Positions 9,443 through 61,338 of a stretch of 64,000 nucleotides of DNA are shown piece by piece (positions within the stretch are counted from its first letter, which is position 1; each line of letters starts with the position of its first letter). The notes under the pieces were generated by a model. The model had not been told where the DNA came from. It was given only the letters and a program-made list of their open reading frames with translations, and ran no database searches. Made by a program: the position numbers and the translations under genes. Source of the stretch: Chloroflexales bacterium ZM16-3 (lineage in GTDB: Bacteria > Chloroflexota > Chloroflexia > Chloroflexales > Chloroflexaceae). Location: contig RYFE02000028.1 in the NCBI GenBank assembly GCA_004138175.2, forward strand, positions 1 through 64,000. Reading direction: 5' to 3'.

Positions 9443-9484
9443 GTTGTGTGGCAATGGATTTCAGAAACGAGAAAGGCTAAAGCA

Positions 9485-10189: not shown

Positions 10190-10218
10190 TAAACGACTTG
10201 ATATTGCCAATCCCATCT

Positions 10219-10810: not shown

Positions 10811-11182
10811 ATGACCCATGTTCCCATCGACTTGGACGGCATCGAGGCGCGCAGCATCGCCTCGCTGCCCGGCCGGTCAGAGTTCGGCAACGACCTCTTC
10901 GTGTACGAGGACGGCCAGCGGATGCTCGCAGGTGCCAGCCGGACGATCCGGCCGCACGACGGCGAGACCGGCAGCGAGTTTCGGCGGCGCGTCGAGGCGA
11001 TCGTGATCGCCATCGACGGCCACAAGGTCAAGACCGTCGAGCTGAGCGAGGAGATCCGCGCCGGGATCATCGTCCAGGCCCAGGTCGCCGTGCGGTGGCC
11101 GCCGGAGCCCGCGCCGATCCAGGATGACGGCCGCCTCGCTGGCGGCAGGCCCACCGGTCCGCGAGGCACGCGCGGCGCATAA
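10811..11182 (+). CDS. Hypothetical protein, 123 aa
   Basis: The frame from MTHVPIDLDGIEARSIASL runs to a Gly/Arg-rich tail. The ribosome binding site is weak. The composition is GC-rich with strong third-position bias, which supports coding. It contains mixed alpha/beta segments (EFRRRVEAIVIAIDGHKVKTVELSEE) but no recognised domain. It is the first rightward gene of the phage-like block and points towards the convergent three-gene minus-strand set at 11257-12758. Confidence 0.5.
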   Translation: MTHVPIDLDGIEARSIASLPGRSEFGNDLFVYEDGQRMLAGASRTIRPHDGETGSEFRRRVEAIVIAIDGHKVKTVELSEEIRAGIIVQAQVAVRWPPEPAPIQDDGRLAGGRPTGPRGTRGA

Positions 11183-11256
11183 GATACGGGTTAGCCAGCG
11201 AATACGCGCAACCCGAACCGCGACGCCCGACCTCCAGAGGCCGGGCATCGCGATGT

Positions 11257-11640
11257 CTACCGGCGCACGAGCGGCAGCAGCACCACCGCCAGGGCCAGCG
11301 GGAGCGGCGCGGTCTTGCCGAGGAAGGTGCCGTTATCGTACTCGGCGATGCGCAGGCACGCCAGGAGCGGGTGCGGGATCTCAGAGGTGAAGCTGATGAC
11401 GCGGCGGTGATCACCGGGCGCGCCCTCCTCGTAGAAGAACTGGTCTTTGCCGGCGCACTCGATGGTCAGGATGACCGAATCGGCCGAGCCGGTCTGCCAC
11501 CACCGCGCGACGAGGCCGTCGATGGTCACCTCGAAGTGAACGTCCGCTGGCGGCGTGAAGATAGGCGGGTCGCGGCCACGGGCGACGGACGGCAGGAAGG
11601 CGGCGGTCAGCACGATGAGCGCAATGGCCAAGGTACGCAT
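11257..11640 (-). CDS. Exported protein with signal peptide and C-terminal hydrophobic tail
   Basis: A 127-aa protein starting MRTLAIALIVLTAAFLPSVA, a clear signal peptide with a likely cleavage near SVARG. The mature part is beta-rich (DVHFEVTIDGLVARWW, DSVILTIECAG). It ends with a hydrophobic segment and two arginines (PLPLALAVVLLPLVRR), the layout of a C-terminal membrane anchor or sorting tail. It starts 9 bases after the stop of the HTH gene at 11650 and is probably cotranscribed with it. The function is not known. Confidence 0.65.
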   Translation of the reverse strand: MRTLAIALIVLTAAFLPSVARGRDPPIFTPPADVHFEVTIDGLVARWWQTGSADSVILTIECAGKDQFFYEEGAPGDHRRVISFTSEIPHPLLACLRIAEYDNGTFLGKTAPLPLALAVVLLPLVRR

Positions 11641-11649
11641 CACAGGCTC

Positions 11650-12486
11650 CTACGCAATCAGCGGCATCGCCAGGTCGGCGACGAGGGCCCGGCGCAGGCC
11701 AGCGAGCCAGTCCGCCGAGAGGCCATCGGTCGCGAGATCATGCCATCTAGACAGGGTGATCAGCGCGGCCCCGGCCGGCCGGGGCGCGAGGATCTGGTAC
11801 CACGCGAGCCACAAGAAACACCCGCGCTGGCCGAGCGCGCTGTCCAGCTCCATGACCGTGCGCAGCTTCGTCGAGGCCAACGTGACGCCGCCGGCGAGCC
11901 GCTCCAGGGTCGCGGACGCGTGCCGCGTCACCGTTTCTCCGGTCTGGACCAAGCCGCAGGCAGCGGCGTAGGCGCGGATGTCTTCAGCGACGAGCACGCC
12001 GCCCGCGAGGGCCACGCGGCGCACCTGGCGCGCTGGCACAGGCGGGTAGACGAGCACGAGCCGGGCCGGGCTCGCGGGGATTATCGGCGCGAGGACATGC
12101 TGGACCAGCTCGCTGGCCGGGAGGTGCAACGAGCACAGCACCCGCTGCGCGACTAGGCTGCTCAGAAGATCGCTAAGCACGCCGAGCGCGGCGGGGGCGT
12201 TGCGATCTGCCAGCGCCTCGAACGCGCGCACGTCGGCCAGCAGCAGGGCCGGCTGCGCCGATGGCGTCAACGACCAGCCGTTCAGGGCGCGGCTCGTGTC
12301 CGGCAGGCTCAGGCCGAGCGCGCGGGCCAGGGCCACCGCGTCGCGCATGATGACGCTTCGGGAGCCATGCTCGATCGCGCGCAGCTCGTCGTCGGCGAGG
12401 TCAACGCGGCGGGCTAGGTCGTGCAGCGTGATGCCGCGATCACGCCGCGTGCGCTCCAGCAGGGTCGCAAAGAAGTTCACGGTCAT
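11650..12486 (-). CDS. HTH (XRE-type) regulator with unknown C-terminal domain
   Basis: A 278-aa protein whose first 70 residues form an XRE helix-turn-helix (LLERTRRDRGITLHDLARRV, then DLADDELRAIEHGSRSVIM). The remaining 200 residues are Ala/Leu-rich and helical, with strands such as PARLVLVYPPVPARQVRRVA. I do not recognise this part, but it could be a sensor domain. The start overlaps the stop of the upstream gene by 4 bases. It lies in the middle of a three-gene minus-strand operon and may regulate the divergent terminase-side genes. Confidence 0.7.
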   Translation of the reverse strand: MTVNFFATLLERTRRDRGITLHDLARRVDLADDELRAIEHGSRSVIMRDAVALARALGLSLPDTSRALNGWSLTPSAQPALLLADVRAFEALADRNAPAALGVLSDLLSSLVAQRVLCSLHLPASELVQHVLAPIIPASPARLVLVYPPVPARQVRRVALAGGVLVAEDIRAYAAACGLVQTGETVTRHASATLERLAGGVTLASTKLRTVMELDSALGQRGCFLWLAWYQILAPRPAGAALITLSRWHDLATDGLSADWLAGLRRALVADLAMPLIA

Positions 12487-12758
12487 CCTTTCGGGTGCGG
12501 CACGACGACCGCCGCCGCCTCGACGAAGCGGTAGTCATGCCGCCGAGCGGTTCCCGGTGCCGCGCGCCGCGCATTCATCGGCCGTAGGCTATGTTCGCCG
12601 ACCCAGCGGGCGCGGAATGCGATCTTGGTCCACCGCGCCGTCGAGCCAGAGATCGCAAAGGTCGTGCCGACGGGAAGGCTCCCGAAGCGGGTCGGCTGGC
12701 CCCACGCCGGCGGCGGGCGGGTGGGGCTGATGGGTCGCGGGCGTCGAGGTAAACGCAT
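12483..12758 (-). CDS. Hypothetical phage-type small protein, 91 aa
   Basis: I start the gene at 12758 (MRLPRRPRPISPTRPPPAW). It has a Pro/Arg-rich N-terminus, then a beta segment RFGSLPVGTTFAISG, WTKIAFRARWVG and YRFVEAAAVVV. The F-x-x-LPVG-x-x-F...K-x-A-F pattern is common in small phage and mobile-element proteins of unknown function. It is the first gene of the minus-strand operon and overlaps the HTH gene by ATGA. Confidence 0.5.
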   Translation of the reverse strand: MRLPRRPRPISPTRPPPAWGQPTRFGSLPVGTTFAISGSTARWTKIAFRARWVGEHSLRPMNARRAAPGTARRHDYRFVEAAAVVVPHPKG

Positions 12759-12808
12759 GTGCGCATTGTGATCACGGACATGCCGCTCTGTCAACCCACG
12801 GCGGCAAA

Positions 12809-12837
12809 CGACAAATGAGGAGTTCGTGCTACAATAC
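12809..12837 (+). promoter_or_regulatory. Diverged relative of the conserved promoter
   Basis: AGTTCGTGCTACAATAC (12821-12837) is identical to the spacer end and -10 box of the cassettes at 14963 and 23734. The -35 position reads ACGACA instead of TTGACA and the spacer is 16 bases. The upstream GTTTTACC block is missing. It would drive the gene at 12854, and probably more weakly. Confidence 0.6.
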
Positions 12838-12853
12838 CGTCAGGAAGCGCAGC

Positions 12854-13423
12854 ATGGAGCCTACGATGTCACCGCCACAAACCCTTCCCGACGACGCGCC
12901 CGAGTATAAGGTCTGCCCCGATTGCTACGCCGAAGGCCGCGACCCGTATCTGCTGAAGGTCGAAACCCACTTCTACATCAAGCGGGCGCCGCGCTACAAG
13001 GGCGGCTATCGCATCAGCGCCTACTGCAAAGAGCACGAGAGCAAGCGGGTTGTTGCGCGCAAGCAGGCCCGGATGGAGCGGTTGGCGCAGGCTGAGCGCG
13101 AGAGCGGGGAAACCCCGCCCGAGCTGGCGAAGATCCGCGAGGATGAGCGGCGCTGGCACCGCGGCCGGGGGTCGATGGCCGGGGCATACGCCGCGCTGCC
13201 GGAGGAGAAGAAGGTAGAGCGGCGGGCGAAGGCGAAGGTGTACGCCAAGGCCTGGCGTCAGGAGCAAGACCCGAAGAAACACGAAGAGGCCCTGGAGCGC
13301 AAGCGGCAGCACTATCGCGAGAACCGCGAACAGATCCTCGCGCAGCAGCGCCAGCGGCGCCGGGAGGAAGGGAGAGGGCCGCGAAAGGTGAAGGCACCGG
13401 CTGAACCGGCGGAAGACGCGTAG
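12854..13423 (+). CDS. Zinc-finger and basic coiled-coil protein next to terminase
   Basis: A 189-aa protein; the ATG at 12854 follows AGGAAG. Residues 15-55 carry CPDCYAEG and YCKEHESKR, a likely Cys/His zinc site. From residue 60 onward it is highly charged and helical, rich in Arg, Lys and Glu, ending in a basic tail. It is placed directly upstream of the terminase large subunit, where phages often encode a DNA-binding small terminase or an HNH protein. A small-terminase-like role is a guess from position; HNH catalytic residues are not evident. Confidence 0.6.
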   Translation: MEPTMSPPQTLPDDAPEYKVCPDCYAEGRDPYLLKVETHFYIKRAPRYKGGYRISAYCKEHESKRVVARKQARMERLAQAERESGETPPELAKIREDERRWHRGRGSMAGAYAALPEEKKVERRAKAKVYAKAWRQEQDPKKHEEALERKRQHYRENREQILAQQRQRRREEGRGPRKVKAPAEPAEDA

Positions 13424-13441
13424 CCAGTCGCCCGCGCGTGC

Positions 13442-13499
13442 TATAGTAAAGGCATACAGGCAGCGATTACGCGCCGATCCGCACCGCGGGTTGGCGCGT
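13442..13499 (+). promoter_or_regulatory. Leader with -10 box and hairpin before terminase
   Basis: TATAGT (13442-13447) could be a -10 box, without a good -35. ACGCGCC (13469-13475) and GGCGCGT (13493-13499) form a stem followed by TTTCTG, another leader hairpin ahead of a start codon. Confidence 0.35.
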
Positions 13500-13536
13500 T
13501 TCTGTGCGCGGCGGGGCGGGTCGGCGACCCCGGCAC

Positions 13537-14961
13537 ATGGCACAGGCGAGCACTATCTACACCCACGTCCAGCTGGAGCTCGCCCGCCGCGAGCTTGAGC
13601 GGCGGCGGGCTGCGCGCGTGGCCGAGACGACCTTTGGCACATGGCTCCCCGAGGTCACCCCGGAGTTCACCTGGGACTGGCAGCACCTCGTCCATATCCG
13701 CAGCTATCTCGACCAGATCACCGCCGGCACCCTCAAGAAGCTGATGATCTTCCTGCCGCCACGGCACGGGAAGAGCGAGATGTCGACCGTCCGCTACCCG
13801 GTGTATCGGATGGAGCAGAACCCCAAGACGCGGGTGATCGTGGGCTGCTACAACACCGAGCTGGCCACCACGTTCTCCCGCGAGGCCCGGCGCATCGCTG
13901 GGCCGCGCGGGATGTTCCAGCGACCGGGGCTCAAGAACACCGAGTCGCACTGGGAGATCGCCGGCGGCGGCAGCTTCCGCACGGCCGCCGTCGGAGCGGC
14001 ACCGACCGGGCGCGGCGGCGACCTGATCATCATCGACGACCCGGTGCGGTCGCGCGAGGACGCCAATAGCGAGACCTATCGCGATAAGGCCTACGCCTGG
14101 TACTCCAACGATATGTACACCCGTCTGGAGCCAGGCGGCGCGATCATCCTGATCATCACCCGCTGGCACGAGGACGACCTGGCCGGGCGCATCCTGGCCT
14201 CAGAGGACGGCCCGAACTGGACGGTCTGCTCACTGCCCGCCGAGGCTGAGGAGAACGACCCGCTGGAGCGCGAGGTGGGCGCTGCGCTCTGCCCCCAGCG
14301 CTTCGACGAGGCGGCGCTGGCCGATATTCGCGGCGTGCTGGGCATCGACTACTACGCGCTCTACCAGCAGCGGCCGGTCAGCGACGAGGGCGGGCTGTAC
14401 CAGAAGGGATGGTTCACTTACCGCAAGCCGCCGACGAACGCCCGGGGCGATCTCCTCTTCGACTCCATCATCCAGGCCTGGGACACCGCCTCGTCCAAGC
14501 TGGGCGACTACTCGGTCTGCGCCACCGCCGGCGTCACCGGCACCGATGTCTATCTGCTCGATGTGTTCCGCGACCGCCTCGAAACACCCGAGCTGAAGCG
14601 TGAGGTCGAGCGGCTGGCGGCGATCTGGCAGCCCAGGGTGATCCTGATCGAGGACGCCAGCAACGGCATCGCGATCCAGCAGATGCTGCGCCGCGAGACC
14701 AAGCTGCCCATCATCGCCGTGCCGGCACACAAGGCGGGCAAGGTCAGCCACGCCCGGGCCAACGCGCCGTATCTGGAGGGTGGCCGGGTCATCTTCTGCC
14801 CCGGCGCCTACCTCCCCGCCTTCGAGCGCGAGCTGCTCAGCTTCCCGAGCGGCACGCACGACGACCAGGTCGATGCGCTCAACGTCCTGCTCACCCGCGT
14901 CTTCGGCGCGGTGGCCACCGGCCGGGCGGGCTCACATAGCGGGGCTGGTGCGCGCTCGTAG
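13537..14961 (+). CDS. Phage-type terminase large subunit
   Basis: A 474-aa protein, normal length for the family. The ATPase half shows Walker A PPRHGKSE (residues 74-81) and Walker B DLIIIDDP (162-169), plus the coupling segment IITRWHEDDLAGRIL (207-220). The nuclease half begins with QAWDTASS (313-320), and its later acidic motifs are LIEDASNG (near 370) and DDQVDAL (near 448). The protein would drive DNA into a capsid and cut it. I start at the ATG at 13537 rather than a GTG 33 bases earlier. No portal or capsid gene follows; instead a new promoter cassette begins 2 bases after the stop. It may package DNA for a helper phage or serve another translocation role. Confidence 0.92.
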   Translation: MAQASTIYTHVQLELARRELERRRAARVAETTFGTWLPEVTPEFTWDWQHLVHIRSYLDQITAGTLKKLMIFLPPRHGKSEMSTVRYPVYRMEQNPKTRVIVGCYNTELATTFSREARRIAGPRGMFQRPGLKNTESHWEIAGGGSFRTAAVGAAPTGRGGDLIIIDDPVRSREDANSETYRDKAYAWYSNDMYTRLEPGGAIILIITRWHEDDLAGRILASEDGPNWTVCSLPAEAEENDPLEREVGAALCPQRFDEAALADIRGVLGIDYYALYQQRPVSDEGGLYQKGWFTYRKPPTNARGDLLFDSIIQAWDTASSKLGDYSVCATAGVTGTDVYLLDVFRDRLETPELKREVERLAAIWQPRVILIEDASNGIAIQQMLRRETKLPIIAVPAHKAGKVSHARANAPYLEGGRVIFCPGAYLPAFERELLSFPSGTHDDQVDALNVLLTRVFGAVATGRAGSHSGAGARS

Positions 14962-14962
14962 A

Positions 14963-15025
14963 GGCGTTTTACCGCATCAGGACGACAAATAAGCACTTGA
15001 CAATGAAGTTAGTTCGTGCTACAAT
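14963..15025 (+). promoter_or_regulatory. Conserved promoter cassette, copy 2
   Basis: Block GGCGTTTTACCGCATCAGG, -35 TTGACA (14997-15002), 17-base spacer, -10 TACAAT (15020-15025), then ACACATGGGCC. It begins 2 bases after the terminase stop and drives the long operon 15098-23732. Confidence 0.9.
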
Positions 15026-15097
15026 ACACATGGGCCAAAAAAGGCAAACCGGCTCATGCGTCGCGGCTTTCGTTCAATCAAAAGGAACCAACCAATC

Positions 15098-15571: not shown

Positions 15572-15593
15572 ATCGCGATAGGTCTTTCCGCCG

Positions 15594-15622
15594 GAGCCGC
15601 GCTGAAAAGCGCGGCTCTTTTT
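15594..15622 (+). promoter_or_regulatory. Intercistronic terminator-like hairpin
   Basis: GAGCCGCGCT-gaaa-AGCGCGGCTC followed by TTTTT looks like a textbook intrinsic terminator, but the AGGAAAGG ribosome binding site of the gene at 15647 follows within 20 bases. A near-identical hairpin lies at 24687. Confidence 0.75.
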
Positions 15623-15646
15623 GATTCCCCAGGAAAGGGGACAGCC

Positions 15647-16282: not shown

Positions 16283-16295
16283 AAGGCTTTCCGCC

Positions 16296-17792
16296 ATGCC
16301 CCTGCTCGTGACCGAACGCACGTCCAAATCCATCCTGTCCGCCCAGCCCAACGGGTTCCTGGTTCAGGGGCCGTACCCGTTCACCCACACGCTCTCGCCG
16401 TTTACTGGCTGCCAGTTTGGAGCCACCACATGCGGGCTCTACTGCTACGCGCAGTGGCTGCCGAACTGGACCTACCGCAGCGCCGAGCTCAAGGGCACCA
16501 CGGCGGAGCCGGTGCGCTGGGGCGAGGGCGTCGATGTCAAGGTCAACGCCCCCGAGCTCCTGGCCGACTACCTCGCCCGCTCCACGGTGGCCCAGCGCCA
16601 GACGCTGCGGATCTTCATGGCGACCACGACCGACCCGTACATGCCGCTGGAGAAGCAGCGGGGCATCACCCGCCGGCTGCTGGAGGTGTTCGCCACATAC
16701 GATGACCTGGACCTCCTGGTTATCCAGACGCGCAGCCCGCTGGCGGCCAGGGACTTCGACCTCCTGCGGCACATCCCCTACGCCTGGCTCAGCCTCACCA
16801 TCGAGTCCGACGACGAGTCGCAGCAGTTGCGCGGCGGGCCGTCGTTTGCCGCCCGGCTGCGCCTCGCCGATGCCGCGGTGCAGGCGGGCGTCCGCACCCA
16901 GATCGCAATCAGCCCGTGCCTTCCCTACGGGCCGGACTTCTGCACCAAGCTGCTGGACACCGGCGCCCAGCGGTTTGTGGTGGACACCCTGGTCGCCGGC
17001 GACGGCCAGGGCGGCGGGCGCACCGCCCGATCGACCTACGCCCGGCTGGTGCCCGAATGGGACGACGAGGCGCCCGCCCAGCGCCTCCACGATGCGCTGC
17101 TGGCCGCTGGGGTTGCGGTGGGCTGGTCGGCCGACGGCTTTGGGGGCATCCCCTACCGCACGGAGCAAGCCAAGAAGGGCCATCCGGGTGGCCGTCAGGC
17201 GGCGACGGGGGATGACATGCAGATGCGCCTGTTTACCACCGACCCGCCGCCGGCGTCAGCGATGGTGCTGACCCTGGGCGAGGAGGGCCAGGAGCGGCGG
17301 CCGATGCCAGGGTTCCCCTACTTCTGGCTGAAATATATCACCGGGTTCGACGCCCGCCACCACTGCGCTCAGTGCTTTATCGGCCCCTACCACAAGGGGA
17401 TCTGGTCCACGGTTCGCGTCCCGAGCGTTCACGTCCTCAAGCCGTCGGTGGAATGGCAGTTCGCCTACCTGTGCGGGGTGGCTGAGACGCAGTGGGCCGA
17501 CAACCTCCACGTCCCGATGGTGGAGGCCCAGGGCGAGGAGATCGAGCTCTTCACCCACAACGGAATCCGCGTCCACATCAGGAACGCCCGTCGGCTAGAG
17601 ATTCCCTGGATTGAGGACGGCTGGAACGGCTTCCCCAGAAGCTATACCACCTGCCGCAACTTCCAGTTCGGGGTTGACCGGTACGGTTACGACGGAGTCA
17701 GCCGGCCGATCCAGGCCGAGTTTAGCAACCCCAGAAATGGCCGCTCCCAGGCCGCCCTCCAGCGGCGGGAGAAGCGGCGGAGGAACCCATGA
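16296..17792 (+). CDS. SPL-like radical SAM protein with unusual cysteine spacing
   Basis: A 498-aa protein. The N-terminal 300 residues resemble the spore photoproduct lyase-like radical SAM family: an entry strand before the cysteines (FTHTLSPFTGC), YCYAQW after them, and TTTDPYMPLEKQ, LLVIQTRSPLAARD and VQAGVRTQIAISPCLP strands of the barrel. The cluster cysteines are C39, C46 and C50, that is CX6CX3C instead of the usual CX3CX2C. The C-terminal 200 residues are an added domain with HHCAQCF, a possible second metal site. Family members repair thymine lesions or modify substrates by radical chemistry; the substrate here is unknown. The stop overlaps the next gene. Confidence 0.75.
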   Translation: MPLLVTERTSKSILSAQPNGFLVQGPYPFTHTLSPFTGCQFGATTCGLYCYAQWLPNWTYRSAELKGTTAEPVRWGEGVDVKVNAPELLADYLARSTVAQRQTLRIFMATTTDPYMPLEKQRGITRRLLEVFATYDDLDLLVIQTRSPLAARDFDLLRHIPYAWLSLTIESDDESQQLRGGPSFAARLRLADAAVQAGVRTQIAISPCLPYGPDFCTKLLDTGAQRFVVDTLVAGDGQGGGRTARSTYARLVPEWDDEAPAQRLHDALLAAGVAVGWSADGFGGIPYRTEQAKKGHPGGRQAATGDDMQMRLFTTDPPPASAMVLTLGEEGQERRPMPGFPYFWLKYITGFDARHHCAQCFIGPYHKGIWSTVRVPSVHVLKPSVEWQFAYLCGVAETQWADNLHVPMVEAQGEEIELFTHNGIRVHIRNARRLEIPWIEDGWNGFPRSYTTCRNFQFGVDRYGYDGVSRPIQAEFSNPRNGRSQAALQRREKRRRNP

Positions 17793-18013
17793 GCGCACTG
17801 ACCTTCGAGAACCTGCTGCGCCACGTCGGCCACACGATCACCTGTAGCGCGCACGGCCTGCCGCCGCAGAACGTGGTGCTGAACTGCGAAACCTGCGACG
17901 AGGTGATCGTTGACCTCGACGCCGACGGCGAGACGTTGTTTCAGCTCGTGCCCGTCACACCTGAGCCGCCAGTGATGCCGCCGGCTGCGGCGATGGCCGT
18001 CGCCGCAGATTAG
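17789..18013 (+). CDS. Small Cys-containing protein, 74 aa
   Basis: The ATG overlaps the stop of the radical SAM gene (ATGA), so it is translationally coupled to it. The sequence has a single possible metal site (TCSAHG and NCETCDEV), an acidic middle (IVDLDADGE) and a Pro/Ala tail. No domain is recognised. The coupling suggests a partner or accessory of the radical SAM protein. Confidence 0.6.
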   Translation: MSALTFENLLRHVGHTITCSAHGLPPQNVVLNCETCDEVIVDLDADGETLFQLVPVTPEPPVMPPAAAMAVAAD

Positions 18014-18272: not shown

Positions 18273-19658
18273 ATGCCTCAGAACCTCGTGGGCTTCCTCG
18301 GCGGCATCGCCGCCAGCGGAGCGCGCTACAAGATCGAGATCCGCTTCGTCGGCGACGGTTACGAGGCCCACAGCTTCAACGCCGGCGGCTCGGGCGCCTG
18401 GACGAAGCCAACGCTGGTGAAGTCTGGCCCATGGAGCGTGGTGATTAAGGCCGCCTCGTCCAAGTTCGCAGAGAAGACCCGGCCCGGCCGCGACCGCATC
18501 TACACCCAGCCGATGAACGGCGGGCCGAACGCCGGCCCCTTCCCCAAGGCGGTGAGCGACCTGCCGAGCCACCCGCTCTGCTGGCAGATCGGCGAGGGGA
18601 ACGAGCGGCTGCCCTACGAGCTCCATGCCGAGGCTTCCCCAAGCTGGAACGCCGCTTGGGCGTCAGACGCGGCGGTAGAGGCGGTGCCAGCACCGCCGCC
18701 GCTGCCGGCCACGCCCGACCTCGGCCATTTGGTCATGCTCTGCGAGACGATCCCCACCCTGGCCGCCTTCCAGGCCTACCTGACCGACGACCGCTGGCTG
18801 CTCACCGAGAAGATGGAGGGCGACCGGGGCCAGCTTCACCATGATCGCGAGGGGCGCGTCTACCTGACCAACCGCTCGGGCGAGGTGGTGAACTGCCCGC
18901 CGCATATCGAGACCGCGATGCGGGCGGGGACGATGCCGGGCACCTCGCTCGATGGCGAGGTGATCAGCGTAGACGAGGCGGGGCGCGCCCAGCTCTACGT
19001 CGGCGGCAAGGCCACCATCCAGCTCTTTGTGGCCTTCGACCTCCTGCACTATCCGAGCTGCCACGATGCAATGGGGATGCCCCAGATCGAGCGGCTGAAC
19101 ATCCTCGATGGGCTGCTGATTCCCTTCCAGGTGCCGGTGGATCGCTACGCCAGCGGGCTGCGTCTCGTGCGCTGGGCGCAGGGCACCCAGGCCAAGCAGC
19201 GCCTCTACCGCGAGGTGCGCGACCGGGAGGGCGAGGGCTGGGTGGCCCGGGCCACGTACGCCTACTACGCGGGCAAGCGTAGCGACAACTGGATGCGTTA
19301 CCGCGACCGGCTGGCCACGCTCGATGTGGTGGTCTGCGACTACAAGCGGGGCACAGGCAAGTTCCGCGACACGGTTGGTGCCGTGCAGGTCGGCCTCTAC
19401 GAGGGGCAGACCTTGTACTCCATCGGGTGGGTGGGGTCGGGCTGGGACGACGCGCAGCGGGCGGCGTTCTGGGACGCCTGGCAGGCGGGCACGGCGGGCC
19501 AGGTCGTGACGGTTCAGTCGTTCGGGCTGAGCTTCCGCGACCAGGTGATCCGCCCGAGCGGCGTGGCCATCCGCACGCCTGGGGATAAGCGCCCCGTGGA
19601 GTGCCAGTTCCAGAGCGAGGCCAAGCGGGCGCGGGTGAACGCGCCGAAGGTGCAGTGA
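18273..19658 (+). CDS. Diverged ATP-dependent polynucleotide ligase
   Basis: A 461-aa protein; the ATG at 18273 follows AAGGAAAGG. The nucleotidyltransferase core is clear: motif I EKMEGDRG with the adenylated Lys at residue 180, motif III SLDGEV (225-230), IIIa LFVAFDLLHY, motif IV EGWVAR (321-326), and an OB-fold part VVVCDYKRGTGKFRDTVGAVQVGLY read in pieces. Motif I is KxEG rather than the DNA-ligase KxDG. The lysines expected in motifs IV and V are arginines here (EGWVAR, NWMRYR at 339-344). The N-terminal 150 residues are not recognised. It could seal nicks in element DNA, act on RNA, or be catalytically altered. Confidence 0.75.
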   Translation: MPQNLVGFLGGIAASGARYKIEIRFVGDGYEAHSFNAGGSGAWTKPTLVKSGPWSVVIKAASSKFAEKTRPGRDRIYTQPMNGGPNAGPFPKAVSDLPSHPLCWQIGEGNERLPYELHAEASPSWNAAWASDAAVEAVPAPPPLPATPDLGHLVMLCETIPTLAAFQAYLTDDRWLLTEKMEGDRGQLHHDREGRVYLTNRSGEVVNCPPHIETAMRAGTMPGTSLDGEVISVDEAGRAQLYVGGKATIQLFVAFDLLHYPSCHDAMGMPQIERLNILDGLLIPFQVPVDRYASGLRLVRWAQGTQAKQRLYREVRDREGEGWVARATYAYYAGKRSDNWMRYRDRLATLDVVVCDYKRGTGKFRDTVGAVQVGLYEGQTLYSIGWVGSGWDDAQRAAFWDAWQAGTAGQVVTVQSFGLSFRDQVIRPSGVAIRTPGDKRPVECQFQSEAKRARVNAPKVQ

Positions 19659-20362
19659 TGATGCTCTACATCTTTGCGGCCCTGACTGTGGAGGAGGCGG
19701 CGACGGTCGCCGAGTCGCTGGAGGACGGCGGCGTGCCGGAGGCGCTGCGGCAGAAGCTGATCGCGGCCACGGTGCCGACGCTGCCGCCGACCGCACTGGT
19801 GCTGCACGACGATCACAACGCGCACCGCGTCATCCTGCTGCTCGACGACCGGAGCCGGCCGAACCGGGAGTTGGAGGCGCTGCGCAGCTTGGCCTACGAG
19901 GAGTTCGGTCAGGAGCTGACCGACGTGCGGCTGCAGACGGCGCAGAGCGTCGAGGTGGTGCGGCGGATCGTGCATGACGCCAACGACATGGGCGACGCCG
20001 GCGACGCCGGGCCAGTCGCATTCGAGAATCGCCAGATCGCGGATCGGCGCGACCTGATCACGGCCCTGGCGCGGGTCGCGCCGGTGGCCTACGAACACTC
20101 CTCGGGCAGCGGGAACTACCACGTCGTCATCGACATCGGCGCGACCCCTGGCGAGGTCATGATCGCCAGCGGCAGCGGCATCAGCGATTGCGACGTCTTT
20201 ATCTTCGGGTGGAGGGACGGGCGGCAGATCGAGTCCTGCGCGTTGCCGGGAGGGAATATCGCGGTGACAAGCCTGAAGGAGGCCGTCACAGCCTTCACCA
20301 CGTTTTGGGACAACCGTGATGCCTGGCTCAGCCAGATCGCCGAGGGGCGGCTGGATATCTAA
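19658..20362 (+). CDS. Hypothetical protein, 234 aa
   Basis: Its ATG overlaps the ligase stop (TGATG), implying coupled translation. The protein starts MMLYIFAALTVEEAATVAES and shows mixed alpha/beta content, with an acidic middle (DANDMGDAGDAG) and a C-terminal segment SGSGNYHVVIDIGATPGEVM that looks like a compact beta domain. No family recognised. The linkage to the ligase suggests a joint role in DNA or RNA ends, without further evidence. Confidence 0.65.
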   Translation: MMLYIFAALTVEEAATVAESLEDGGVPEALRQKLIAATVPTLPPTALVLHDDHNAHRVILLLDDRSRPNRELEALRSLAYEEFGQELTDVRLQTAQSVEVVRRIVHDANDMGDAGDAGPVAFENRQIADRRDLITALARVAPVAYEHSSGSGNYHVVIDIGATPGEVMIASGSGISDCDVFIFGWRDGRQIESCALPGGNIAVTSLKEAVTAFTTFWDNRDAWLSQIAEGRLDI

Positions 20363-20373
20363 ACGACGGCTAT

Positions 20374-20401
20374 GCCCGGCGAGGCCACTGCCTCGCCGGG
20401 C
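20374..20401 (+). promoter_or_regulatory. Intercistronic GC hairpin
   Basis: GCCCGGCGAGGC-cact-GCCTCGCCGGGC is a perfect 12-bp stem located 14 bases before the ATG at 20416, with the GAGAGGAACG ribosome binding site immediately after it. Confidence 0.65.
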
Positions 20402-20415
20402 CGAGAGGAACGACG

Positions 20416-20946
20416 ATGGCAATGGAGAGACGACCGGACGGCGTGGTGCTGGCGACGCGGGGAGGCATCGACTTCATTCGCCAGGACGCGATCCTGGCCG
20501 TGGACGCCGAGGGCCGAGTCGCGTACTACTGCCCGGCCGCGGGTTGGGACGAGAGCGGGGCGCGCCGGGCGGTCGCGCTGGAGACCAAGATCGCGGCGGC
20601 GCAGGCGAAGCTGGCCGCGCTGCTGGCGGAGCAGCGGGAGCTCGGCGGCCAGCCTTTGACGCAGCTGGAGGCACCCAGGGCGAAGAAGCCGAAGCCACCG
20701 CGTCAGCAGTGGACGTGCCTCCGGTGCGGGCGCGGGATCAACAACTTCGCGCTGCACGCACGGTCGCACCCCGAGGTGGCCGACCCCGAGGAGCTGCGCG
20801 GGGAGCTGCGCGGGCCGGGGATGCAGGGCGGCGCGGAGCTGCCCCAGGAGCCGGCCCAGGCGGCCCCAGCCGAGCCGGAAGCGACGGGGCAGGGCGATGG
20901 GGCACCGCCCCGGCAGGAGGCCGCGAGGGGCGAAGGCGTAAAATGA
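20416..20946 (+). CDS. Protein with a Ros-like C2H2 zinc finger, 176 aa
   Basis: The N-terminal 45 residues are beta-like (MAMERRPDGVVLATRGG). A coiled helix (about 50-80, KIAAAQAKLAALLAEQREL) follows. The segment CLRCGRGINNFALHARSH (about 101-118) has C-x2-C-x9-H-x3-H, the spacing of the prokaryotic Ros/MucR zinc finger, a DNA-binding module. The tail is rich in Pro, Glu and Gly. It is probably a small DNA-binding protein of the element. The stop overlaps the next gene by ATGA. Confidence 0.65.
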   Translation: MAMERRPDGVVLATRGGIDFIRQDAILAVDAEGRVAYYCPAAGWDESGARRAVALETKIAAAQAKLAALLAEQRELGGQPLTQLEAPRAKKPKPPRQQWTCLRCGRGINNFALHARSHPEVADPEELRGELRGPGMQGGAELPQEPAQAAPAEPEATGQGDGAPPRQEAARGEGVK

Positions 20947-21095
20947 TACTGCCGCAGGGACAGCTCGCCGCCGCGTGGCAGCGGATCAGCGACCGGACAC
21001 TGGCCCGCATCGATACGGGGGCTGAGGATGCCGACGAGCTGCGGCGTCAATTCCTGCGGCAGCGCCTGCGGGCGCACCGCACCGGAGGTGCGTAA
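20943..21095 (+). CDS. Short helical protein, 50 aa
   Basis: The ATG overlaps the preceding stop (ATGA). The frame MILPQGQLAAAWQRISDRTL continues to a basic C-terminus (LRRQFLRQRLRAHRTGGA). It is entirely helical in character. It ends 1 base before the next gene's start. No domain recognised; the tight packing supports it as a real gene. Confidence 0.55.
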   Translation: MILPQGQLAAAWQRISDRTLARIDTGAEDADELRRQFLRQRLRAHRTGGA

Positions 21096-21096
21096 T

Positions 21097-21369
21097 ATGA
21101 TCGCGATCATTCTCCATCTTGGGACAACCGTGGTCGGCTCCTGGACCGTGCAGGACTGGATTGCCGACCCCGAGGCGCTCCAGCGCCTCGCCGACGAGGC
21201 CGGCTGTCGCATCTCCGTGGTGCCGCTGGCGAAGGTGCAGCCGCTCGAGCCCGGCGACCTCGTGCGCCGGGCGCGGGCCAAGCTCACTGACGGCGGAGCC
21301 AGTCTGGTGACGGAGTACCACCCCGGCAGCCGGCCGCGAGACATGCGTGATCAGGAGTATCCGCTATGA
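21097..21369 (+). CDS. Hypothetical protein, 90 aa
   Basis: The frame starts MIAIILHLGTTVVGSWTVQD with GGAGG 8 bases upstream. It is short, alpha/beta, without a recognised domain. The start codon lies inside TATGATCGCGATCAT, a 15-base stretch identical to the operator-like palindrome at 26653, which may be chance or a binding site. The stop overlaps the following gene (ATGA). Confidence 0.6.
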   Translation: MIAIILHLGTTVVGSWTVQDWIADPEALQRLADEAGCRISVVPLAKVQPLEPGDLVRRARAKLTDGGASLVTEYHPGSRPRDMRDQEYPL

Positions 21370-21560
21370 CAGGCCATTGCCCGCACTGCAATCGCACCTT
21401 TGACCTCACGAATCGGATATCCGGTGACGAGATCCTCTGTGTGTGCAATCACCGCATCCGAGTCCAGTTCCAGCCCCGCGCGACCGCGAGCCTGACTGAT
21501 GTGACCCCGCGCCGACCGATGGGGCAGGTGAAGCCGCCGACCGATCCACCAACGGAGTAA
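21366..21560 (+). CDS. Zinc-ribbon mini-protein, 64 aa
   Basis: The sequence begins MTGHCPHCNRTFDLTNRI and continues DEILCVCNHRIRVQF, so CxxC and CxC pairs can form one zinc ribbon of about 30 residues, followed by a Pro-rich tail. The start overlaps the preceding stop. It is probably a nucleic-acid or protein-binding accessory of operon B. Confidence 0.6.
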   Translation: MTGHCPHCNRTFDLTNRISGDEILCVCNHRIRVQFQPRATASLTDVTPRRPMGQVKPPTDPPTE

Positions 21561-21566
21561 CCCGCT

Positions 21567-22319
21567 ATGACCGCAACATCGAGCACCCCGGCCGTCCTGG
21601 CCGGGGTGCTGCTCTTTGCCCTTCCCGACAGCGAAGGCGTCACCCGGCGGATCGCCCTGCACCCGCCGGGGCACTACGCCGTGGATGATCGCTGGCCGAG
21701 GCTCAGCCTGATGGTCGGACAGCCCGATGGGTCGGTCGAGCTGTCTGCGCCGACCGCCGATGCGCCGCGGGCCAAGGTGAGCTTCCCCCACCTCGGCCAT
21801 TGGGACCCGCGCTACCTCGGCTACGAGAACCTGTGGATGCTGATCACGCACTACCCATATGAGCGCACCCGTGACGGGCAGCGGCACCGCCTCATGCATC
21901 CCGAGCTGGCCGGCCAGAGCCGATGGCTCACCGTGCAGCGTGACCGGGGCGACGGGCTGATCGAGCCGATCACCTGCGTGGCCCCGGCGCCGGTGCTCGC
22001 CCAGGAGTTGCTTGGTTCGTGGATGCGCGACCGCGCCGCGTCGACGTGGAGCGGCGGCGACGAAGACCCGTCGCTGGGGCGCTCGACGCTCCAGGTTGAG
22101 CGAATCCTAGGCGTAACCATCACCCTGCGCCGCGTCAAGGTGCTGCCCGACGACCCGATGGCGCGGGTCAGCCCGACCTGGTGGACTGTCGTGAGAAGCT
22201 GGCCGCGGCCGATGCAGGAGCCGCTGGTCACCACACGCTGGTTCAGCCCCGGCTCGACCGACTGGGCGATCACCGCCTTTGTCGGCATGGTCGCCGGCAC
22301 CGGCCCGCACTGGCGATGA
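21567..22319 (+). CDS. Hypothetical protein, 250 aa, with a hairpin in its first codons
   Basis: The start at 21567 has GGAG 9 bases upstream. The codons after the start (21583-21614) form GAGCACCCCGGCC-gtcct-GGCCGGGGTGCTGCTC, a stem like the intercistronic hairpins nearby but located inside the coding sequence. The protein has several Trp-rich beta segments (RWPRLSLMVGQPDGS, FPHLGHWDPRYLGYENLWML) and ends in GTGPHWR. No family recognised. It may be a structural protein. The stop overlaps the next start. Confidence 0.62.
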   Translation: MTATSSTPAVLAGVLLFALPDSEGVTRRIALHPPGHYAVDDRWPRLSLMVGQPDGSVELSAPTADAPRAKVSFPHLGHWDPRYLGYENLWMLITHYPYERTRDGQRHRLMHPELAGQSRWLTVQRDRGDGLIEPITCVAPAPVLAQELLGSWMRDRAASTWSGGDEDPSLGRSTLQVERILGVTITLRRVKVLPDDPMARVSPTWWTVVRSWPRPMQEPLVTTRWFSPGSTDWAITAFVGMVAGTGPHWR

Positions 22320-22726
22320 GCTACTTTCGCGAGCTCTACCGCCTGCCGGTCAAGGACTGGCAGCGGGAGATGCTCGACCATCTACATGCCGAGGAGCTCG
22401 CAGCGATCTGCGAGCTCCTCGGCATTCCGGTCTCGGGAACCAAAGCGGAGCGGAGCGCCAGGATCTGGCAGGCCAGGCACCTGCGCCTGGTGCTGGCTCC
22501 CTACACCCTCGGCCAGGCCGGCGTCGCCCAGCTCGCGAAGAGCTACCGCGCCGATGAGCTGCTGGCGCTGTGCCGCGCCGCCGGAGCCTACGCTGGCGCG
22601 ACCAAGTACGCCCGCGCTGCCTCGCTCATCCAATGGCGCGAGGCCTGCCGCCAGCGCGGCCAGGAGGCCCTCGACCAGGCCCGCGCCGCCGTGGCAGGGC
22701 AACCAGGACAGAAGCGACTTCTTTAG
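22316..22726 (+). CDS. SAP-like DNA-binding protein, 136 aa
   Basis: The ATG overlaps the preceding stop. The segment LHAEELAAICELLGIPVSGT followed by KAERSARI (about residues 23-50) has the L-x4-L-x3-C-x2-L-G-x5-G-x-K pattern of a SAP domain, a helix-extended-loop-helix DNA-binding unit. A second, weaker copy follows (YRADELLALCRAAGAYAGA, then TKYARAASLIQW). The rest is helical and Gln/Arg-rich. It probably binds DNA of the element. Confidence 0.6.
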   Translation: MSYFRELYRLPVKDWQREMLDHLHAEELAAICELLGIPVSGTKAERSARIWQARHLRLVLAPYTLGQAGVAQLAKSYRADELLALCRAAGAYAGATKYARAASLIQWREACRQRGQEALDQARAAVAGQPGQKRLL

Positions 22727-22740
22727 AAGGGACACGACGC

Positions 22741-23058
22741 ATGCAACGCACCGTCTGGTTCGACACCTTTGAGCTAGATGCAGGCGAAATCGCCGAATAC
22801 GTCTCGACCGAAACCATTGTCCGCGCCGAGGCGCGCTACTCGGCACGGAATGCGATGAACCGCGACTCGCTGGAGGTGCGGGCCGACCTTATCGGGCCGC
22901 CGTGGATGTGGTCGATTGCCGAGATGCCGATGGATGACGACAGCCTGAACTGCCTCGTGCTGGTGCTCGACCTCGACGAGGCCGGCGAGCAGGCGCTGCG
23001 GGCAGCTATCGCGCCGCTGGTAGAGACGGATTACGCCGGGTTCTGGCTCGAACCATGA
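22741..23058 (+). CDS. Hypothetical protein, 105 aa
   Basis: A small acidic protein starting MQRTVWFDTFELDAGEIAEY, 14 bases after its neighbour, with AAGGGAC upstream of the ATG. It has alternating strands and helices and several Trp and Met residues (GPPWMWSIAEMPMDDD). No domain recognised. The stop overlaps the next gene (ATGA), so it belongs to operon B. Confidence 0.6.
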   Translation: MQRTVWFDTFELDAGEIAEYVSTETIVRAEARYSARNAMNRDSLEVRADLIGPPWMWSIAEMPMDDDSLNCLVLVLDLDEAGEQALRAAIAPLVETDYAGFWLEP

Positions 23059-23732
23059 GCTGCGCATGGACGAGCGACGACGTTGATCGCGAGCTTCACG
23101 CCGTCGGGTGCTGTCTCTGCGCGCTCGACCAGACCCGGCCCGCGCAAAAGCGGCTGAGCCCCGAGGAGGCCCGGCACCTGCTGGGCCTCTTCGGCTTTGC
23201 GCTGGCCGAGCTTGACGACGGCACATGGGTCGCCATCGATGAGCAGCGCGGCAGGCGGGTGCCGTCCGTCTCGGGGATGGGCACCGACCACTCCATCGAC
23301 GACCTCGCCGGGCTGGTGGTGCGCGCCCGCTGCGCCGACAAGCTGGCGGGGCCGCTGACCATCGCCGAGGCTACCGCGCAGCTGGCGACGCTAGGCTTTA
23401 CGCTGCATCACACCGATCACCGGTGGTACGGCAGGCAGTGGCGCGCGACCAGCCAGGATCGCGAGGCGAGCACGTTCGACTGGGGCCGGCTGGCCTCGGT
23501 GGTTGAGGCCGCGCGGTCGATTGTGCGGCAGGACCTCTACAGAGGATCGCGGCAGGAGCGCATGCTGGAGCTGACCCGGCAGATGGCACCGCTCGACCTG
23601 GAGCCGGCCAAGCCACCGACGCGGACCTGGACGCCGGCGACGCCGCCGCCGGGCCCTGGCGGGCAGCTCCAGTTCGACCTCGACGCGCCCGTCGTGCCGA
23701 AGCCCTGGAGCCCGAAGCGACGGAGACGCTAG
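23055..23732 (+). CDS. Hypothetical protein, 225 aa, with two related halves
   Basis: The protein starts MSCAWTSDDVDRELHAVGCC. Two similar segments can be seen: LSPEEARHLLGLFGFALAEL with DDGTWVAID, and LTIAEATAQLATLGFTLHHT with DHRWYGRQW, each a helix, a G-F turn and a strand. The C-terminal 40 residues are Pro-rich and end in a basic KRRRR. It is the last gene of operon B; the third promoter cassette begins immediately after its stop. Function unknown. Confidence 0.62.
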   Translation: MSCAWTSDDVDRELHAVGCCLCALDQTRPAQKRLSPEEARHLLGLFGFALAELDDGTWVAIDEQRGRRVPSVSGMGTDHSIDDLAGLVVRARCADKLAGPLTIAEATAQLATLGFTLHHTDHRWYGRQWRATSQDREASTFDWGRLASVVEAARSIVRQDLYRGSRQERMLELTRQMAPLDLEPAKPPTRTWTPATPPPGPGGQLQFDLDAPVVPKPWSPKRRRR

Positions 23733-23733
23733 G

Positions 23734-23796
23734 GGCGTTTTACCTCATCAGGACGCCAAACAAATGATTGACAATGAAGTCAGTTCGTGCTACAAT
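23734..23796 (+). promoter_or_regulatory. Conserved promoter cassette, copy 3
   Basis: Block GGCGTTTTACCTCATCAGG, -35 TTGACA (23768-23773), 17-base spacer, -10 TACAAT (23791-23796), then ACACATGGGCAAAAAAA. It drives the operon 23846-25526. Confidence 0.9.
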
Positions 23797-23845
23797 ACAC
23801 ATGGGCAAAAAAACCCACAAAACCCGCTGTCAAAAGGAGTTCGCA

Positions 23846-24328
23846 ATGGCAATCACATCGCTCCACATCGCAGATTTCAACGGCAACCAGGCGGAAGTGC
23901 TGATGGTCACCGCGAGCAAGGGCGTCGCGCCCCGGTTCGATATTCTTTTCAACGGCCAGCTGGCCGATCAGGTGCCGGCCACCTCCGCGTGGCGGGCCGA
24001 GCAGAAGCTGGCGATCGCTAAGGCCCGCGTGCTGGTGGGGCTGCCGGAAGTTGAGGATGCCCTGACCCCGGCCCCGGCGGCGGCTCCCTGGGCGCCGACC
24101 TCGAGGCGGCAGGCGAAGATGGCCCTGATGTATGCGGAGAATGCGCGGGAGGCAGGCGCGACGGATTCACCGAATGCCCTGCTGGCCAAGGGTCGGGAGC
24201 ATGCGGCAGTCTGGGCGGGCTACGGGCGCGAGGCGTTCAATCACGAGTTCGACCGCCTCGTGGTCGAGGGCAATGAGCTATGCGAGGATTGGGACCTGGC
24301 GGCCCGTGAAAAAGTGATCGTGTACTAG
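23846..24328 (+). CDS. Operon-head protein, paralogue of the gene at 15098
   Basis: A 160-aa protein starting MAITSLHIADFNGNQAEVLM, with AAAGGAG before the ATG. The N-terminal 60 residues align with the protein at 15098 through APRFDILF and VPATSAWRAEQKLAI. The C-terminal part is different and helical (RRQAKMALMYAENAREAGAT). Its place behind an identical promoter suggests duplication of an operon head. Function unknown. Confidence 0.75.
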   Translation: MAITSLHIADFNGNQAEVLMVTASKGVAPRFDILFNGQLADQVPATSAWRAEQKLAIAKARVLVGLPEVEDALTPAPAAAPWAPTSRRQAKMALMYAENAREAGATDSPNALLAKGREHAAVWAGYGREAFNHEFDRLVVEGNELCEDWDLAAREKVIVY

Positions 24329-24340
24329 GAGAAATCGACC

Positions 24341-24664
24341 ATGAACGACGCCACCAATGACATTCAGCTCGCCAGCCCCAGCCGTGAGATCGTGGTCTGG
24401 CGCCGAATCGGGGGCGGCAACCCCGGATACGGGCTGGATGTGGACGGGAAGACCCAGCAGTTCAACCCGCGCGGGCGGGCGAAGCTGGTGGCCGCCGCCC
24501 AGGAGCTGGCGAAGATCCGCGGCGTGGTGCTGGCGAAGCCCGCGGTGACCCCCATCGTGATCACCGGTTCGCCCGGCCTCACCCACGTCGATCCCGAGCT
24601 GGACCGGATGCTGGGCCGGTTCTACGTCGGGGATGACGAGTACGGCTGGGACGAGCAGATGTGA
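24341..24664 (+). CDS. Hypothetical protein, 107 aa
   Basis: The frame runs from MNDATNDIQLASPSREIVVW to an acidic end (DDEYGWDEQM), with AGGAG upstream. A central basic helix (RGRAKLVAAAQELAKIRGVV) is flanked by strands. No domain recognised. It lies 12 bases after the operon head and before a terminator-like hairpin. Confidence 0.6.
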   Translation: MNDATNDIQLASPSREIVVWRRIGGGNPGYGLDVDGKTQQFNPRGRAKLVAAAQELAKIRGVVLAKPAVTPIVITGSPGLTHVDPELDRMLGRFYVGDDEYGWDEQM

Positions 24665-24686
24665 CCGAGTCCTGTCCCCCTCGCCA

Positions 24687-24715
24687 GAGCCGCGCTGAAA
24701 AAGCGCGGCTCTTTT
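24687..24715 (+). promoter_or_regulatory. Intercistronic terminator-like hairpin
   Basis: GAGCCGCGCT-gaaaa-AGCGCGGCTC followed by TTTT, then AAAGGAAACC and the ATG at 24736. Almost identical to the hairpin at 15594, although in a different operon. Confidence 0.75.
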
Positions 24716-24735
24716 GATTCGCAAAGGAAACCACG

Positions 24736-24978
24736 ATGGATATCGCTCGCGTGACTACCGACCTCGACCTGATGGTCGAGAAGCTGAACAGCCTGCGCAA
24801 CCAGATCGATGTCGAGATCAAAGCGACCAGGCCGACCGCAGCCAACGCCGAGGCCATCGCGAAGCTGCGCGCCCTGGAGACCCAGCTGGCCCGGGCGCGC
24901 GCCGGCGCGATCACCGCCCGCGCGGCCGCCAGGGAGATCGCGCCGAGGAACTACCAGACTGAGGCATCCGGCATTTAG
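24736..24978 (+). CDS. Small coiled-coil protein, 80 aa
   Basis: The protein starts MDIARVTTDLDLMVEKLNSL and is almost wholly helical with heptad-like leucines (LRNQIDVEIKAT, IAKLRALETQLARARA), so a coiled coil is likely. It has AAGGAAACC before its ATG and follows the hairpin at 24687. No domain recognised. Confidence 0.6.
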   Translation: MDIARVTTDLDLMVEKLNSLRNQIDVEIKATRPTAANAEAIAKLRALETQLARARAGAITARAAAREIAPRNYQTEASGI

Positions 24979-24995
24979 CCACCACGAGGCATCCA

Positions 24996-25526
24996 ATGAG
25001 CGATCTATCCCAGACCAAGCTCTCGCCCGTGCAGCGCGCGCTGGCGCTGCTGATCAAGGACACGCACCGCGAGGACGAGGCCGCAGGCCGGGCGGTGAAC
25101 CGGCTGCTCGGCCAGACGAAGCTGCCGCCGCTGGTCTCTTTTGACGGCGTGGAGGCAATCTTTCAGTCCGCGAGCGAGCCCGAGCTGCGCAACGTCACGA
25201 CGGCGGAGGGCTGCTCCTGCCGAGGCGGCAACCACGCATGGTGTGTGCACAGAGTACGCTTCCGCATCCTGATGGCCGAGGCCGCGATCCTCGACCCGCT
25301 GAGCCTCCTGAGCGCGTTCGTCGAGCACGCACCGGCCGATATGCGGCGCACCAGACCGTACCCGTGGCCGAGTCCGGTTGGCAAGGAAGATGGCCACCGT
25401 GTCGGCGGCGGCGTCGTAGAGGTCGATCTTCCCGCTAGCCTCGGATCGCCGGTGGGGCGACCGAAGGCCCAGGTGACACCGCTCCCGGCTGACATTCAGC
25501 AAGAGATCGACGAGCTCTATCCATAG
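24996..25526 (+). CDS. SWIM-type zinc-finger protein, 176 aa
   Basis: The protein begins MSDLSQTKLSPVQRALALLI. Near residues 74-86, CSCRGGNHAWCVH matches the SWIM zinc finger (C-x-C-x7-C-x-H), a small module that binds DNA or protein and occurs with helicases, transposases and MULE-type proteins. The remainder is helical, then Pro-rich. It is the last gene of operon C. A role in DNA handling by the element is inferred. Confidence 0.65.
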   Translation: MSDLSQTKLSPVQRALALLIKDTHREDEAAGRAVNRLLGQTKLPPLVSFDGVEAIFQSASEPELRNVTTAEGCSCRGGNHAWCVHRVRFRILMAEAAILDPLSLLSAFVEHAPADMRRTRPYPWPSPVGKEDGHRVGGGVVEVDLPASLGSPVGRPKAQVTPLPADIQQEIDELYP

Positions 25527-27166: not shown

Positions 27167-27240
<74 letters not shown>

Positions 27241-27244
27241 GCAG

Positions 27245-61213: not shown

Positions 61214-61214
61214 G

Positions 61215-61328: not shown

Positions 61329-61338
61329 ATAATATGGA

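Follow-up and report, generated by a model that had tools for sequence, protein, structure and literature searches.

In this study, we describe a genomic island at the left end of a 64,000-nt window of DNA from Chloroflexales bacterium ZM16-3 (bases 1–64000 of the 72,435-bp contig C49 in a 6.27 Mb genome of the Oscillochloris group, Chloroflexota). The island is mobile, conserved and regulated, and it carries a working-looking terminase large subunit (TerL) together with no recognised head or integration gene. Tentatively, we favour its interpretation as a phage-satellite-like island that would bring its own packaging motor and depend on the procapsids of a helper phage, the packaging itself being what we infer. 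The island spans ~0.9–27.0 kb (from ~930 or less to ~26980) and is thus at least ~26 kb long. The element that an initial annotation, made from the sequence alone, had placed at 10811–25526 is real, but appears to exceed that interval at both ends. The contig physically ends at window position 1, leaving the left flank unassembled. On the right, tRNA-Gln and tRNA-Leu lie at 27167–27331, and the host chromosome continues from ~27.4 kb with 88–91% synteny to contig C105 of Oscillochloris sp. ZM17-4 (genome G004, same genus), including hisF at 28253 (by eye).

Terminase and search for head genes

TerL is full-length, matching phrog_38 with an E value of 2.7e-98 in the PHROG profile search and the Pfam families Terminase_6C (2.7e-12) and Terminase_6N (1.7e-7), both above cut-off. 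Pattern matching recovered motifs assigned as Walker A (PPRHGKSE) and Walker B (LIIIDDP), together with three acidic motifs of the nuclease, so that the full-length terminase with intact ATPase and nuclease motifs of the initial annotation could be confirmed. The same motifs are present in all five full-length members of the TerL clade; a phmmer search of TerL against the PDB gave no match. Matches to TerL occur in 9 of 150 related genomes, the window genome included. Six are close, namely the window protein itself, those of ZM17-4 (81–82% identity), G005 (75%), G033 (65%) and G027 (64%), and a C-terminal fragment in G015 (80%), while three are distant (G090, G138 and G014, 29–37%); no second TerL relative was found in the window genome. 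In a tree of the window protein and 121 of 134 TerL rows (400 to 639 aa), from which the G015 fragment was left out, the five full-length proteins group together with an SH-aLRT of 99, the tree being built by a fast procedure that issued long-branch warnings on other rows.

In a crude Nei–Gojobori-type count by our own script, TerL has a dN/dS of 0.23, the second-lowest of 18 gene pairs between the window and ZM17-4, and by this count is under purifying selection. Only a 74-aa protein is lower (0.13), followed above TerL by the SWIM-like (0.24), radical-SAM-like (0.26) and 123-aa (0.27) proteins, with the other 13 pairs at 0.33–1.02. The queuine tRNA-ribosyltransferase-like gene, of which ~85 aa remain in ZM17-4, was excluded, and for the right-end HTH gene saturated synonymous sites precluded a ratio. 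Since TerL lies so near the lowest of the 18 pairs, a decaying relic is hard to reconcile with this result.

Among 23 window proteins, no structural family except TerL was found with PHROGs at E ≤ 0.01, the left end beyond position 1 being unseen, and Pfam and PHROG scans of the genes of this island and of its ZM17-4 counterpart recognised no portal, capsid or integrase gene with TerL, as had initially been proposed. None of the six clade members has a portal beside TerL in the available DNA, which in G005, G033 and G027 comprises only 1.1–1.6 kb after TerL. By comparison, the next large open reading frame (ORF) after TerL is a Pfam portal in all seven relatives scanned singly (L058, L059, L060, L061, L063, L064 and L144, the last barely above cut-off), and portal families top the list downstream of TerL in a wider set of 66 of 94 ORFs plus one more (L144:11210-12670), with phrog_156 in 22 of these 67. 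The portal family PF04860 is present in 11 of 61 genomes searched and in none of the six TerL-bearing ones, PF05133 and other portal families lying outside the genome-wide search. Called genes without any family are all shorter than ~280 aa in both the window and ZM17-4 islands, and known portals are larger than this. Pfam scans of the called genes of both islands additionally revealed no relaxase, coupling protein or conjugation gene, and those of the island genes no recombinase, serine type included, for which no genome-wide search was made. Replication or partition genes were recognised in neither island, while ParB and DnaN occur on G027 contigs with kin genes.

Mobility of the island

The ZM17-4 island (contig C96, NZ_JAIEWN010000020.1) is largely collinear with that of the window and lies at a different locus, between two blocks of host chromosome. 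By tblastn, 17 of the 28 window ORFs tested (1796–25526), besides TerL, match ZM17-4 locus L011, which extends only to contig position 94178. Order is kept for all shared ORFs but one (3301–3801), which matches further right, beside operon 3. No match in L011 was obtained for the cargo genes, the minus-strand pair (as tested with its 278-aa HTH gene), several small ORFs and the KilA-N gene at 25591. Left of the ZM17-4 island, 66646–72990 is syntenic with contig C37 of the window genome, and on the right, next to tRNA-Ser, synteny returns at 97885 after a 58-bp match that starts at 97691, leaving ~24.9 kb between the syntenic flanks. The island is absent at C37, since other genes occupy 58870–62930 there. 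C37 is not a clean empty site, as 62930–62987 still carries part of the right-end HTH gene including the hairpin, a remnant which we read as the likely scar of an older insertion. Conversely, no island adjoins the hisF locus of ZM17-4 on C105. The two sites, tRNA-Gln/hisF in the window genome and tRNA-Ser in ZM17-4, therefore differ, each being island-free in the other genome, and by these different chromosomal sites in close relatives the island is a mobile element. The left flank of the window locus could not be located, the gene left of the hisF block on C105 sitting in a different neighbourhood, C106, in the window genome.

A right-end HTH gene with a 3′ hairpin and a convergent tRNA 0.2–0.35 kb beyond recurs in the window (26683–26981), in ZM17-4 (C96 97463–97748) and in L213 (1495–1798) of G021, a genome without this TerL. 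The window hairpin lies ~200 bp from the 3′ end of tRNA-Gln (27167–27240, minus strand). We considered it as an attachment site and now tentatively prefer a terminator that separates the HTH gene from the convergent tRNA genes (T-rich flanks by eye), a simpler reading than an attachment site or island end. Between tRNA-Ser and tRNA-Trp, ZM17-4 carries an HNH-like gene (by eye; L140 14342–14833, C96 98221–98712), which the matching stretch of C37 lacks.

Shared operator–promoter repeat

Three operons of the window island are each headed by a copy of a 90-nt repeat (the second and third copies 86% and 93% identical to the first), containing a dyad-like box (TTTTACCKC-N8 and a right arm that is degenerate) immediately 5′ of TTGACA-N17-TANAAT. 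The copy directly after TerL includes a promoter-like site (TTGACA-17-TACAAT, 14997–15025) and is followed by small genes without family, in line with the new promoter and small unknown genes noted there initially. Because the same repeat stands at 2706, 14960 and 23731 and also in ZM17-4, this promoter would be one of three in a shared regulon. ZM17-4 holds three such sites (73473, 84216 and 91377), with fuller dyads and a sequence variety of their own, and G033:C1071 holds one. Upon scanning with six mismatches allowed, one further weak match appeared in the window (5414) and none in its 27–64 kb part, in host loci L149, L170, L171 and L210, or in 20 mononucleotide-shuffled windows. In both islands, three operons stand under one predicted operator–promoter type that is specific to the element. 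A single match of the pattern on a viral contig was taken as chance, that contig having no homologue of the window or ZM17-4 island.

Gene content, cargo and kin contigs

The features of the island are collected in Table 1.

Table 1. Features of the island in window coordinates; values are E values unless stated otherwise.
Feature	Position	Strand	Evidence or remark
Perfect dyad TTTTACCGC-N8-GCGGTAAAA, same putative operator type	150–175	.	pattern scan; no clear promoter or gene adjoining
XRE/HTH repressor-like gene, 104 aa	933–1247	-	HTH_31 1.9e-11, HTH_3 2.7e-9, phage-regulator PHROGs
57-aa ORF divergent from XRE gene	1375–1548	+	no family
Queuine tRNA-ribosyltransferase-like protein	1928–2746	+	weak phage PHROG match, phrog_7068 2.8e-6
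Operator–promoter repeat copy 1, heads operon 1	2706–2795	+	90 nt
Operon 1: five genes, 147, 166, 93, 257, 77 aa	2822–5247	+	ZM17-4 homologues; no Pfam family above cut-off
Low-GC cargo block between two 158-bp repeats	5633–10389	.	GC 0.468
SLFN/AlbA_2 gene in cargo block	5855–6658		PF04326 1.6e-17
123-aa protein	10811–11182	+	59% identity in ZM17-4; no family
Two genes, 128 aa and 278 aa with HTH	11257–12486	-	HTH_31 2.3e-6
Cys-rich 189-aa protein just upstream of TerL	12854–13423	+	no Pfam family
TerL	13504–14961	+	PHROGs, Pfam, motif patterns
Operator–promoter repeat copy 2, heads operon 2, directly after TerL	14960–15049	+	86% identical to copy 1
Two fast-evolving genes, 157 and 211 aa	15098–16282	+	dN/dS comparison
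Radical-SAM-like protein, 498 aa	16296–17792	+	sub-threshold Pfam; phrog_13321 1.7e-19 (function unknown)
74-aa protein	17789–18013	+	strongest constraint of tested pairs, dN/dS 0.13
ATP-dependent DNA ligase, 461 aa	18273–19658 (longer ORF from 18105)	+	PF01068 1.4e-9, phrog_114 1.8e-23, PDB ligases
Remainder of operon 2: small genes without family	19601–23732	+	includes 250-aa protein and 23055–23732
250-aa protein	21567–22319	+	71% identity in ZM17-4
Operator–promoter repeat copy 3, heads operon 3	23731–23820	+	93% identical to copy 1
Operon 3: four genes, 175, 107, 80, 176 aa	23801–25526	+	no Pfam family above cut-off
KilA-N and AbiEi_4 regulator-like gene	25591–26367	-	PF04383 6.1e-13, phrog_129 2.9e-23
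Right-end HTH gene	26683–26964	+	3′ end inside hairpin ~26927–26981

Relatives of the Cys-rich protein hold the same place in ZM17-4, G033 and G027. For the radical-SAM-like protein, Pfam matches stay below threshold (DUF5131 2.7e-4, Radical_SAM 2.7e-3), and distant relatives exist in 2 phage and 56 plasmid records. The radical SAM part of the proposed SPL-like radical SAM protein agrees with the annotation of most of the listed plasmid relatives, while SPL lacks Pfam support. Near its start, this protein shows an unusual cysteine spacing, C-x6-C-x3-C by eye, which recurs in the G033 homologue. The proposed ligase was recovered by its Pfam family, with distant phage relatives in 17 records (best 28% identity over 58%). 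The proposed KilA-N protein likewise belongs to its family, although its gene lies just beyond the interval originally given, whereas the SAP, SWIM and Ros-like assignments found no Pfam support among the genes scanned and correspond only to motifs seen by eye, such as the SWIM-like motif in the last, 176-aa gene of operon 3. The 250-aa protein has no match in phage records, and its AlphaFold2 model, from a two-row alignment, reached a pLDDT of 39.5 and gave no usable fold. No match to the ribosyltransferase-like protein was obtained in phage or plasmid records or, by phmmer, in the PDB, and viral-contig scans confirmed no relative of this protein, the radical-SAM-like protein, the ligase or the 250-aa protein.

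The low GC content of the window cargo block contrasts with 0.682 in the core. The same slot holds different cargo in the two islands, an SLFN/AlbA_2 gene in the window versus genes in ZM17-4 for two TIR proteins (one of them TIR-STAND-TPR) and for a Mom-like DNA-modification protein (PF25680 5.8e-8; phrog_1384 7.2e-9). PADLOC gave no match for three window cargo proteins. The ribosyltransferase-like gene, with one weak PHROG match, is a possible DNA-modification gene. Two 158-bp direct repeats (5633–5790 and 10232–10389, 89% identical) bracket the block, and 29-bp terminal inverted repeats were seen in one of them; they may form a MITE-like pair that brought the block in. Part of the cargo (7742–8521 of 6656–8521) matches ZM17-4 outside the island with 86% identity, in L171 1–1834 on G004:C105, ~10 kb from the hisF-side gene and at a contig end.

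Further core genes appear on contigs of related genomes. G033:C1071 carries a radical-SAM-like gene, the 74-aa protein, two copies of the 250-aa protein and operon 3 genes, and on G027:C319 a full-length radical-SAM-like gene is accompanied by kin of operon 3. On G027:C889, the C-terminal part of another radical-SAM-like gene occurs with a ligase and ParB, and on G027:C460 TerL occurs together with DnaN. Of the 150 genomes, 4 have full-length radical-SAM-like genes (at least 56% identity), and these belong without exception to the six with the close TerL (hypergeometric 7e-7, not corrected for kinship). In G015, the TerL fragment is followed by a weakly matching FtsK/HerA-like ATPase (phrog_1358 4.7e-4, DUF87 1.1e-3). 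On G033:C1423, the relative of TerL has a DISARM DrmD-like helicase (L142 3995–5899, E 3.2e-303) only a few genes away.

Interpretation

We propose a model in which infection by, or induction of, a tailed helper phage would relieve the repressor, upon which the operons would switch on and the island would be excised and replicated, be it by enzymes of the host or helper or by unrecognised ones. The island TerL would then dock on the helper portal and pack island DNA into helper procapsids. DNA modification (Mom-like in ZM17-4, possibly by the ribosyltransferase-like gene here) could protect the double-stranded DNA, once packed, against restriction on entry into the next cell, where the ligase may help to close it. 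That the island is a satellite of this kind appears to us quite possible, if short of probable. In its favour we count the TerL motifs in five of five proteins, the dN/dS of 0.23, the SH-aLRT of 99, the two loci, the operator repeats, the swappable cargo, the repressor-like gene at the left end, the lack of a TerL-adjacent portal in six of six members (in the available DNA) against its presence in seven of seven relatives, and the lack of a PF00589 integrase on C49 and C96 among the matches listed. The further step, to a separate satellite class with its own TerL and no shell, portal or integrase gene, is doubtful though conceivable. Such a class would use helper procapsids and itself supply the motor, DNA modification and a three-operon regulon, residing beside tRNA genes by host recombination or an unknown enzyme.

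Several observations weigh against this model. No helper, excision or particle was seen, and the lack of PF04860 portals in the six TerL-bearing genomes means that none harbours a resident helper of that type. Neither a small terminase subunit (TerS) nor a cos site was identified. Satellites usually carry an integrase and att repeats; here, PF00589 integrases, abundant elsewhere in both genomes, are absent from C49 and C96 among the matches listed (~22 of 25 in the window genome, ~24 of 27 in ZM17-4), and att repeats were not found, direct repeats between the ends of both islands being short and at chance level. The operator is absent from eight of nine short kin contigs. The lack of a large ORF soon after TerL is additionally not peculiar to the clade, as among the 109 loci that extend for 1.5 kb or more beyond TerL, 22 have no same-strand 300-aa ORF starting within 2.2 kb, 20 of them outside the clade, one of which (L060) does have a portal, overlapping TerL. 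Finally, the ZM17-4 left end preserves no more of the ribosyltransferase-like gene than its final ~85 aa and, with its leftmost core gene cut in this way, may be a deletion end. Head genes could thus be lost or unseen, the window left end being unassembled and that of ZM17-4 seemingly truncated.

The same cut gene and the lack of an integrase would also fit a reduced prophage, in which a temperate phage of this bacterial family shed its head and tail genes before the two copies separated and the remainder was kept, in part for its useful cargo; TerL is of a type usual in phages, and the repressor-like, KilA-N and Mom-like genes are phage-like. We nevertheless consider this unlikely, as TerL is apparently under purifying selection, core and regulon are conserved in two islands at different loci, and other genera, too, have TerL of this clade with no portal adjoining it. 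That the element is a phage with structural genes that escaped recognition, or that are located to the left of window position 1, seems very unlikely. The window does begin at a contig end, many island proteins have no family, and the genome-wide portal search was confined to PF04860, while the closest phage relative has a portal of the PF05133 type; yet the left neighbour of the ZM17-4 island is host chromosome and the called genes without family are too small for known portals. A complete conventional prophage immediately to the left, which the initial annotation had named as the finding that would overturn it, is hence not what ZM17-4 displays, although ancestral genes further left are possible, since the left end of that copy is cut into a gene.

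Of the origins offered initially, a satellite, a plasmid-like phage relative or a domesticated DNA-transfer system, the satellite fits best and the last has no direct support. The second is kept alive by ParB and DnaN in G027, ParB lying beside the ligase and partial radical-SAM-like gene and DnaN on the TerL contig, and by the weak FtsK/HerA-like ATPase after the G015 fragment. In a plasmid-type or integrative element, TerL would serve DNA processing (resolution, nicking or translocation) rather than packaging. We regard this as improbable, given that neither island has a recognised relaxase or conjugation gene, that ParB and DnaN are absent from both as scanned, and that the ZM17-4 DNA-modification gene suggests entry of double-stranded DNA.

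Comparison with known systems and significance

The tested features do not allow the island to be filed as a phage-inducible chromosomal island (PICI), a capsid-forming PICI (cf-PICI) or a prophage; it may still function like a satellite. According to the available part of PMC10690885, cf-PICIs likewise encode a large terminase and no tail set, but also capsid, portal, protease and TerS, none of which was recognised in the island, nor was an integrase; own capsid and portal genes beside TerL were not found in Pfam and PHROG scans. Classical PICI/SaPI and P4-like satellites are alike in being chromosomal islands with a repressor and swappable defence cargo (PMC9122126, in part), but use the terminase of the helper via cos sites, with their own TerS or an adapter (PMC10690885, same part), whereas the island encodes TerL. 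Satellite AH14b carries no terminase in the portion of PMC4936722 at hand. Some VEIMEs and MiniFlayer, a small percentage of satellites, also lack a known integrase (PMC10690885, likewise in part); MiniFlayer has terminase, portal and capsid genes, while the island has TerL alone. The closest viral contig, the tailed phage contig L058 (IMG/VR), shares the TerL family at 47% identity and continues with a portal (phrog_104 1.9e-69; PF05133 2e-30) and, further on, an HK97-type capsid (PF05065 3.1e-26). Neither was recognised in the island, and the prophage order of TerL followed by portal and capsid was not found in the window, and likewise not in the ZM17-4 island with its host DNA on both sides.

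Among the open-licence PMC papers listed, no title or abstract reports such an element in Chloroflexota, which is no proof of absence in print. The strategies for satellite packaging named in the available part of PMC10690885 are use of the helper terminase via cos, its redirection with an own TerS or an adapter, and a full set of capsid and terminase genes. If our reading is true, an island in which the motor alone is retained by selection would represent an additional packaging strategy, would make it possible to ask directly if a terminase can go on working with a foreign portal over evolutionary time spans, and would place satellites in filamentous anoxygenic phototrophs.

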